From positions 7,385,908 through 7,449,907 of the forward strand of contig NC_087082.1 of NCBI RefSeq assembly GCF_026151205.1: a stretch of DNA of 64,000 nucleotides, given 5' to 3'. How positions within the stretch are numbered: the first letter of the stretch is position 1; each line of letters starts with the position of its first letter. A program made the translations under genes and the position numbers. Shown here piece by piece: positions 32,281-35,200 of this stretch. This DNA comes from Bolinopsis microptera (taxonomy: Eukaryota; Ctenophora; Tentaculata; Lobata; Bolinopsidae). The notes under the pieces were generated by a model. It saw only the letters and a list, made by a program, of their open reading frames with translations. It was not told the DNA's origin and did not search any database.

Positions 32281-35200
32281 CTAGTTTTCTTTGGCGTTAA
32301 GAATGGCGTCGTGAATTGCATTAGCCACATATTTGGCATTCTCCTGGGTAATTCCACACATGCTGATTCGCCCTGACTTCAGGAGGTATACATGGTGTTT
32401 CTCTATCAGCAACTCGCACTGCGCTTTAGTTAAACCTGTGGTATACATTTGTTAGCTAACTGTGTGGATATCTTAATGGAAATTTAAATTTAAAGCATAT
32501 AGACTCCATGATTTTAATTAATTATAATTAATATACCTAATTAATTATAATTACCAGTGTAGGAGAACATTCCGTTCTGAGCGAGAATGTGGTCCCATGA
32601 TCCAGGAGCGTTTGCTGTTTTCAGAGCAGTGTGTAGATAGGATCTGGATCTTCTTATCCTAAAGCAATGAACGTTACAGACCGGTGTGGTAAAAACACCC
32701 CATTTTGAGGTTTCTCGTATAATATCGGTCACCCTCTCCCATATAATACAATGTATATTACCCATATTATTATTTAAGATAATACATATCATTAGCACGA
32801 ACCTGGCGTGCATTTCCTTAACACAATCCTCCCACTCAGCCCTCATGTCCCTGTTGTTCAGACACATGCTAGCAATACGAGCCCCGTGTGCAGGCGGGTT
32901 AGAGTAGATCGACCTCACAATTATTTTCATCTGAGAACAGTATTAGGTCCTTTAGTTTTAGAGAAGGTATATTTTAAAAGGACGCAGGGTTAGAGTCCTC
33001 AGTAGGATACAGTTGGTAGAATTGAGTGATAAGAGCCACGTACAGTTGTTAGAATTGAGTGATAAGAGCCACGTACAGCTGGTAGAATTGAGTGATAAGA
33101 GCCACGTACAGCTGGTAGAATTGAGTGATAAGAGCCACGTACAGTTGTTAGAATTGAGTGATAAGAGCCACGTACAGTTGTTAGAATTGAGTGATAAGAG
33201 CCACGTACAGTTGGTAGAATTGAGTGATAAGAGCCACGTACAGTTGGTAGAATTGAGTGATATGAGTTGCAGTAATCGACCGGGATTCCCGGCGCCGTGA
33301 AATCCCGGCACCGGGGGAGCTATTTCTTCCCGGCCCCGGCCGATTTTCAATTTTTGCCGGGAATTTGGCCGGGAATTTTTGATCGAAATCGGCCTAAAAC
33401 TTTCATATAAATCTTAAAATGGATTTTCAATTTTAAAAGGATGATGTCCAGAGTGCCAACTTTGTCCTGAAAAGTTCTAACTTGGCCGTGGATTTATTAA
33501 ATTCACGGCCCCGGCCCCGGCCAAATTCCAGAACGGCCAATTCCCGGCCCCGGCAAAATTTGGACATTCCCGGCCCCGGCCCCGGCCAAATCCTACCCCC
33601 GGTCGTTTACTGATGAGTTGCACACATGGTAGAAAATACACCAATAATATTACCTGGGACAGGCACTTATGAGAAATCTCCGCAGTTTGGCCCGCAAATA
33701 TCATACATCCTATCCGCTCACAGTACAAACCCATGATCTTCGCGAAACTCTGACACACTATGAACTCGAACCCGAGATCGGCAAATAAGCGGATGCTAGC
33801 AGCATCCTGATCGAAACTTCCTGATGCGTATCCTGACAGATTTAGGAGAGTTATATTCTTGACTTAAGACTAAATCAGTATTAATTTGACAAATTGGGTC
33901 TATTGACTTATTAATTGTGTTGACTAATATGTGTACCTAGATAAGCCAAGTCAAAGAGAGGAAAATGACTCTTCTTCTTGCAAACTTCAGCAATCTTCAG
34001 CCATTGCTCCATCGTCGGATCGATCCCTGAAACAATCACATAGCTTAGGTAACCAATAACCATGGCAAGGTCCAAGTAGTATGAAATGATAGTTTCACCA
34101 ATTGTTCAGTTAGCACACCATGTTCACTGTAATCTGGTCCCCTAAACTGAAACTTATGAGGACCAGGGAAGAAGCAGAAAACGGAGAGCACCAAAAAGGT
34201 GCTAAAAAGTACTAACTAACCGGTAGGATTGTGAGCACACTAAAAAGTACTAACTAACCGGTAGGATTGTGAGCACACTAAAAAGTACTAACTAACCGGT
34301 AGGATTGTGAGCACACTAAAAAGTACTAACTAACCGGTAGGATTGTGAGCACACTAAAAAGTACTAACTAACCGGTAGGATTGTGAGCACACTAAAAAGT
34401 ACTAACTAACCGGTAGGATTGTGAGCACACTAAAAAGTACTAACTAACCGGTAGGATTGTGAGCACACTAAAAAGTACTAACTAACCGGTAGGATTGTGA
34501 GCACACTAAAAAGTACTAACTAACCGGTAGGATTGTGAGCACACGCGTGAAGCACCACCACACTACCGTCCTGAGCAGCCTCCAAGTCTCTGCACATACC
34601 CTCCAAGTCAAACCCCATAGTCTGAGAGGAACTTCGTTGAGGGACTTGAAAATGTTAGTAAGAGTAAGAATTTATATAAAACACCTGGTTTACAAGGTTG
34701 TCCTGTTCATTACAACTAGCTTTATTTTATATAGTAAGATTAGGACGGTATTATATGTATTATATGTACTAGCAGGAACCCGTCAAACCTTTAAGACTGG
34801 TGTCAAGGCTCTTTGGTGGCCGGATCAGTTTCCTACCCTAAAGTCTCCCAGTAAAAATAATTATTACCTATTTAATTCGCGTTTTTGACACCACTTGGGG
34901 GTCCAAATTTTGGGTACTAAAATTCTTATTCTTTGGCCGATTTTCGATTTTTTCATGCTGATTTGAAGGCCATTAAAGCATTTGAATCAGTTAAAAAAGT
35001 TTCAGTTTTATATCTTGTACGGTTTTTGCGGAAACCCGTGTTAAAGTTGATGCCGTGGTGTCAGTAAAATGGTGCGGATAAATAAATATATATATATATA
35101 TTTTTTATTATGATTGGCTACTGGGACACGTCATACACACGGTTGGATTGTTAATTCGGTTGAAGTACCTTTACATCCATATATATATATATCGTCTCGC

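Follow-up and report, generated by a model that had tools for sequence, protein, structure and literature searches.

In the ctenophore Bolinopsis microptera, the aspartate aminotransferase gene carries nine perfect tandem copies of the 5' splice site (donor) that ends exon 6, and only the most upstream of these gives the protein. The gene lies on the minus strand of the 64-kb stretch of DNA analyzed here (the window; contig NC_087082.1, positions 7,385,908 to 7,449,907), and coordinates without another label refer to this window (Table 1). By direct count, a strict period-38 run of 343 bp holds 9.03 copies that are 100% identical, and Tandem Repeats Finder describes the same interval as 9.0 copies of a 38-bp unit with 100% matches. 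On the minus strand, the unit reads TGTGCTCACAATCCTACCG followed directly by GTTAGTTAGTACTTTTTAG, with exon 6 ending between the two, so that it comprises 19 nucleotides (nt) of exon and 19 nt of intron; array copies 2 to 9 are without any difference from copy 1. A sequence-only reading had already described nine perfect copies here, over 34203-34621, an interval that corresponds to the array plus the rest of exon 6. It had split the unit into 20 nt of exon and 18 nt of intron, and because 343 is 9 x 38 + 1, that register is as valid as ours.

The nine donors begin at 34524, 34486, 34448, 34410, 34372, 34334, 34296, 34258, and 34220. They are all identical and are spaced 38 nt apart, as that reading had stated, and because they do not differ in sequence, position is the only variable among them. 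Translation of the isoforms also agreed with its claim about their consequences: donor 1 alone maintains the frame, while splicing from any of the other eight ends the protein at 138 amino acids of the 355-amino-acid partial model, directly after the HNPTG motif. The unit also contains another GTTAGT, 4 nt farther downstream, whose predicted pairing to U1 is weaker (-3.1 versus -5.4 kcal/mol for the main donor).

The identity of the gene, which had been proposed from the letters alone, was upheld by an 11-exon model in which all 10 introns are GT-AG and by the best Protein Data Bank (PDB) match of the draft protein, human cytosolic aspartate aminotransferase GOT1 (3ii0; E = 1.3e-94). The full model also bears out the numbering of the array exon as exon 6. 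The HNPTG and QSFAK segments of the predicted protein, which we take to be motifs of enzymes that use pyridoxal phosphate, align with human GOT1. The only other homologue found was a gene on C7, which looks mitochondrial-type (GOT2-like) by its first exon and sequence and in which the frame runs through HNPTG without an intron. Our search, which can miss weak matches, thus turned up no cytosolic-type aspartate aminotransferase gene besides the one with the array, and since the other homologue is of the mitochondrial type, the array gene should be under constraint.

The unit is confined to this locus. When a 21-base piece of it (34203-34223) was searched across the 265-Mb genome (264.65 Mb) with up to two mismatches, there were nine matches, all inside this array, and the reversed control of the same piece gave none genome-wide. 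An introner, a mobile intron, or another dispersed element was ruled out on this basis, as 9/9 genome-wide unit matches fall within the array. No second allele of the array with its flank was seen among the 40 of 1,786 candidates that were scored; candidate matches outside the array locus begin at query base 207 or later, within a dispersed repeat. There were also no Rfam matches in the window.

It is important to point out that "nine" and "100%" are properties of one assembled haplotype in one assembly. The source assembly was described as built from PacBio reads with wtdbg2, with haplotigs purged and short reads used for polishing (PMC10232365). It is conceivable that the assembler or polisher made nine perfect copies out of an array of another number or identity, say one of 2 to 20 copies or one whose copies differ. 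That processing, the probable inability of short reads to anchor within 343 identical bases, and the account of one amphioxus array of this type that appeared mis-assembled in a draft genome (PMC3087553) all lend this some weight. However, a typical long read greatly exceeds the array in length, other arrays of the same assembly retain sequence differences, and two related arrays elsewhere (L001/L073 and L075, below) retain different copy numbers. We therefore regard an assembly product as quite improbable, and an array of any size over the donor would leave the conclusion unchanged.

Arrays of this kind have a precedent in the "mirages" of amphioxus, which are minisatellite-like repeats across 5' and 3' exon-intron boundaries that are length-unstable and reported not to interfere with splicing (PMC3087553, PMC3902484). 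The genes described as carrying them are Adh3, those for troponin C and the globins BflGb6 and BflGb9, and PGBD5 (PMC3087553, PMC3902484). The array studied here resembles them in several respects. The end of exon 6, at 34525, falls inside it, so the array crosses an exon-intron boundary; the Adh3 units (10 to 72 bp) include the sizes seen here; the Adh and troponin C repeats were likewise called perfect (PMC3087553); and splice signals lie within the copies, here as nine identical donors. With regard to length instability, we have one haplotype for the aminotransferase gene, and a similar array elsewhere in the genome has 37 and 26 donors at two near-identical loci. The differences are that the host is a ctenophore, that there are nine copies at the aminotransferase gene and 37 and 26 donors elsewhere, and that our arrays are known from sequence alone. 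We conclude that the aminotransferase array is a member of the known mirage class, with kin arrays that reach 37 donors, and that it widens this class from chordates to a deep-branching ctenophore lineage. We found no earlier report of donor-spanning minisatellites in ctenophores in the searchable literature; most subscription papers lie outside it, so that such a report may still exist. A related process is the gain of introns through tandem duplication of AGGT segments (PMC4974935), in which tandem duplication across a splice boundary likewise supplies the splice signals; here, an existing intron has been lengthened and no new intron has been made.

Most likely, the 38-bp array is a young or homogenized mirage minisatellite across the 5' splice site of intron 6 that is tolerated, unstable, and spliced out from donor 1. 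It may have begun when a short stretch spanning the junction was duplicated in tandem, the joined ends sharing only 1 nt of homology, and would then have grown and been homogenized by slippage or unequal exchange. The spliceosome would mostly join donor 1 to the single acceptor at 34027. Donor 1 would be the probable choice because it is the first to be transcribed and the nearest across the exon to exon 6's own 3' splice site, because the upstream site is used in human minigenes, and because donors are tethered to the polymerase via U1. In the minigene study (PMC9225289), five exon-defined human constructs with 365-nt introns carried a pair of identical strong donors at a distance of 52 nt and were reported to use only the upstream donor, and introns of less than 250 nt shifted the preference to the downstream one. 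Measured from donor 1, both introns flanking exon 6 (622 and 498 nt) exceed the 250-nt line. These constructs resemble our case in that equal donors compete, and differ in being artificial, with two sites and human-type strong or weakened donors. Nascent donors have been reported to be tethered to the polymerase through U1 (PMC8316553). If splicing links donor 1 to the acceptor at 34027, every further copy is removed with the intron, so that the array would be nearly neutral and its growth free of cost to the protein. Each added copy would lengthen intron 6 as seen from donor 1, from 194 nt with one copy to 498 nt with nine, which is the direction that favors the upstream donor in the human data. 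Any leakage to donors 2 to 9 would give a stop-containing mRNA, probably removed by nonsense-mediated decay. The uniqueness of the array, the intact 11-exon frame, the constraint expected on the gene, the recurrence of such arrays in other genes, and the undisturbed splicing reported for amphioxus mirages all speak for this view, as does the lack of differences among the copies when set beside the 92 to 96% matches of the gene's two 33-bp arrays.

Several observations weigh against this view of the array. Use of the first donor in the ctenophore is something that we infer from the sequence and from other systems. The array donor is predicted to pair weakly with U1, at -5.4 kcal/mol, making it the second weakest of the eight gene donors scored (seven of the nine other donors were scored, at -5.1 to -8.1 kcal/mol, with the exon 3 value one base off), and weakened donors in larger minigene exons were described as leading to exon skipping (PMC9225289). 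With a single copy, intron 6 would be 194 nt long, and short downstream introns favor the downstream donor in the human data. Nor does predicted RNA structure single out donor 1, whose opening cost with nine copies is 6.3 or 5.9 kcal/mol, compared to 5.7-6.3 or 5.1-6.5 kcal/mol for the others; when folding is restricted to short range, it is the last copy that opens most easily. A repeat at a donor can also harm its gene, as in human ABCA7, where skipping of the next exon and lower expression have been reported (PMC5954066). Finally, perfect copies are by themselves a poor guide, since other arrays in the window, such as those of 56 bp x 8.1 and 15 bp x 3.8, also reach 98 to 100% likeness.

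We therefore rejected the idea that RNA structure selects donor 1, since the nine copies are alike in what they cost to open. When folding is kept to short range and the number of copies is even, predicted opening costs alternate along the array (6.0, 4.4, 5.7, and 4.2 for four copies), and 20 of 100 shuffled units fold as well as or better than the real one.

Alternatively, the downstream donors might be used often and their stop-containing mRNAs destroyed, so that copy number would set the amount of enzyme. The immediate stop that follows all eight downstream donors fits such an arrangement, as do the different copy numbers of the similar array at two near-identical loci (37 versus 26 donors). 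The short introns of the aminotransferase gene (5 of 10 are 104 to 235 nt, the shortest being 104 nt) could also favor donors near the acceptor. The closest guide is the variable-number tandem repeat (VNTR) in intron 18 of human ABCA7, which has a 25-bp unit and about 12 to 427 repeats, the first GT being the canonical exon 18 donor (PMC5954066). Here too, the GT of the repeat unit is the canonical donor. The ABCA7 unit begins at the intron, its copies vary slightly, and its copy number is polymorphic, whereas half of our unit is coding. Use of the second ABCA7 donor was reported to cause a frameshift and a stop, and stop-containing transcripts increased when decay was blocked (PMC5954066). 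Exon 19 skipping rises and overall expression falls with VNTR length (PMC5954066), and this last effect speaks for dosage control by copy number. However, retention of one unit in ABCA7 amounts to about 2% (as we interpret "14 +/- 6 and 2 +/- 1%, respectively") whatever the VNTR length, and was dismissed by the authors as an explanation for the lower expression (PMC5954066). The amphioxus mirages are likewise reported as not disturbing splicing (PMC3087553, PMC3902484). We consider control of enzyme amount by copy number unlikely. The sequence-only reading had raised the idea that copy number could tune productive splicing; precedent is mixed, in that second-donor use in ABCA7 is independent of length while skipping and expression depend on it.

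The same reading had called the locus a natural test of how the first of many equal donors is chosen. The nine equal donors are real. They are not unprecedented, given the amphioxus mirages and the VNTRs of human ABCA7 and IFI6, and part of the test has already been carried out with the two-donor minigenes (PMC9225289). In the human IFI6 (6-16) minisatellite, described by Turri et al. in 1995, three mRNAs arise through use of two downstream repeat units (PMC4526556); the downstream donors of IFI6 are used and give isoforms, unlike those of the aminotransferase gene, which give a stop.

Two further possibilities concern the unit itself. Every unit repeats a donor and then CTTTTT, and the extra donors and U-rich tails might gather U1 small nuclear ribonucleoprotein so as to strengthen donor 1 or shield the intron from early polyadenylation. 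In vitro, an added downstream consensus donor was reported to raise U1 loading of two pre-mRNAs and the splicing of one (PMC8724738). But the donor in that experiment marks the distal end of the next exon and is not a neighboring one, and 19 of 19 other sushi exons that we examined lack an array at the donor; a helper role for the array seems very improbable. Because the units also end in CTTTTTAG, the unit sequence itself would in principle permit donor/acceptor pairs inside the array to be spliced together, adding 19-nt exons. These would shift the frame unless three were added, and would need inner introns as short as 19 or 57 nt, compared to 104 nt for the shortest intron of the gene, so we give this option next to no credence.

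Donor-spanning arrays recur within the Bolinopsis genome, which is the new element of this analysis. Including the aminotransferase array, which was given beforehand, we recognized 4 donor-spanning arrays among 112 arrays in 272 kb. This is a lower bound, because the open reading frame filter misses short exons (it caught neither the GOT1 array nor the potassium channel one). With four such arrays, they occur in several genes of one genome, as mirages do. For the three further cases, exons were read from frames only. The smallest, recognized by eye, is a duplication across the donor of a potassium-channel-like exon in the window, which ends AGCAAG/GTAAGA (the slash marks the exon end); its two copies are identical but for one base. 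A sushi exon (Pfam PF00084; L038 9369-9670, C11 at about 7459.3k) located a short way beyond the window terminates in an array of 32-bp units that carries nine GTTAGTGACT donors, of which eight follow AG. The largest is a 32-bp donor-spanning array found at two loci on C1, with 37 donors at C1:36574 (L001 2560-3011 with L073 1-736) and 26 at C1:761373 (L075). In the 37-donor array, the donors read CAG/GT, the last one being followed by other intron sequence, and the exon codes for a membrane-protein-like stretch that has no Pfam match. These two loci lie 725 kb apart and specify identical stretches of 63 residues despite changes at 2 of 189 bases, and the 5' side of the second is 89.6% alike over 632 bp. 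Whether they are paralogues or misplaced alleles, the copy number differs.

The surveys behind these counts took arrays with units of 14 to 100 bp and found 82 in 33 sources (222,001 bases) and 30 in a further 50 kb; an earlier pass had found 69 in 29 sources (175,012 bases). The count of 82 excludes L008 (low complexity), overlapping or duplicate loci, L073 to L075, and the sushi stretches. No donor-spanning array was recognized in ten fixed 10-kb stretches holding 50 arrays, nor did any of the 19 other sushi exons have an array at the donor, these having been chosen by hand among the 150 matches listed, with roughly one taken from each cluster. Arrays cover 12.3% of the aminotransferase gene (9.1% without the 38-bp array), from which 1.2 of 10 donors would be expected inside arrays (0.9 without it); 1 of 10 was observed, with 0 of 10 acceptors. 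The array itself is more than chance, but an enrichment of arrays at donors is not demonstrated. The count of AGGTRAG in arrays (two, versus none for the reversed motif) was set aside as misleading, as one of the two is opposite to the exon strand.

Taken together, these cases suggest a wider proposal that we hold only tentatively, and with less assurance than our view of the single array: Bolinopsis may have many donor-spanning minisatellites, forming a ladder of 2, 9, 9, 26, and 37 equal or nearly equal donors in working genes, which may have survived only because the first donor is almost always the one chosen in ctenophore splicing. If true, first-donor choice and the growth of introns from their 5' end could be tested across a whole genome in an old animal lineage. 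The minigene constructs of PMC9225289 addressed position-only choice with two sites, and the Bolinopsis series extends this to 26 and 37. PacBio Iso-Seq libraries are named in the assembly paper (PMC10232365), so the rule for choosing among equal donors might be readable from existing data. The aminotransferase array also illustrates a way for an intron to lengthen at its 5' end while the encoded protein stays intact.

Table 1. Features of the array, its host gene, and a second donor-spanning duplication in the window (a slash marks an exon end)
Feature	Coordinates	Strand	Basis
38-bp minisatellite, nine perfect copies (+1 nt) across the exon 6/intron 6 boundary	34202..34544	-	Tandem Repeats Finder and period count
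Donor 1 (GT), sole frame-keeping donor	34523..34524	-	Donor coordinates and isoform translations
Donors 2-9, same as donor 1, each giving GGT TAG, a stop after HNPTG	34219..34486	-	Donor coordinates and isoform translations
Exon 6 as spliced from donor 1, 97 nt, ends ...CAC AAT CCT ACC G	34621-34525	-	One open frame, AG before, GT after
Intron 6, 498 nt from donor 1, 194 nt from donor 9	34027..34524	-	Spliced model
Exon 7	33937..34026	-	Spliced model
Whole aspartate aminotransferase gene, 11 exons	32281..42732	-	Continuous frame from ATG at 42732 to stop at 32281, 10/10 introns GT-AG
Exons 1-6	42732-42643, 41970-41902, 35983-35884, 35648-35563, 35372-35244, 34621-34525	-	
Exons 7-11	34026-33937, 33832-33654, 32930-32803, 32658-32555, 32435-32281	-	
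33-bp x 7.8 minisatellite in intron 8, away from splice sites	33008..33266	-	Tandem Repeats Finder
33-bp x 10.9 minisatellite, ends 8 bp before the start codon	42741..43100	-	Tandem Repeats Finder
32 bp x 2 duplication across the donor of a potassium-channel-like exon (...TIIVSTFSK/GTAAGA)	13957..14021	+	Pfam Ion_trans_2, E = 1.7e-07

The aminotransferase gene contains two other minisatellites, both with 33-bp units and 92 to 96% matches, compared to 100% in the 38-bp array. In the one that precedes the start codon, many units contain an ATG, and as 33 bp keeps the frame (MTNITHNPPLI repeats), an upstream reading frame is possible. The 5.9-kb intron 2 holds a nested Ets-domain gene on the opposite strand (38364-39776, plus strand; Pfam Ets, E = 7.6e-35) and a cluster of 10- to 20-bp GC-rich arrays around AGCGCT (39995-41463).

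Some arrays lie at or near other gene signals. A 36-bp x 6.9 array (L079 6886-7132, plus strand) may span a 3' splice site, with GTTTAG/GGAAC repeated, and we claim no bias toward 5' or 3' sites. Two short arrays (49721-49767, minus strand, and L052 1426-1491) bear CTAAC-like branch-site motifs just upstream of apparent acceptors, of an E2F exon and a kinase-gene exon, respectively. At 47935-48011 (plus strand), a beta-hexosaminidase-like reading frame (glycosyl hydrolase family 20) has its stop codon inside a 38-bp duplication. The window also contains a very large array of 369 bp x 28.9 (15644-26349; 10.7 kb), with no open frame of 150 amino acids inside. Elsewhere in the genome, the photoprotein family has at least 55 matches, on C1, C2, C3, C5, C9, C10, and C13, many of them in tidy tandem arrays with a spacing of about 1 kb. 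The one copy that was translated marks the genome as that of a ctenophore, having berovin (E = 2e-103) and mnemiopsin (E = 6e-102) as its best PDB matches, well above hydrozoan photoproteins at 1e-19 and weaker.
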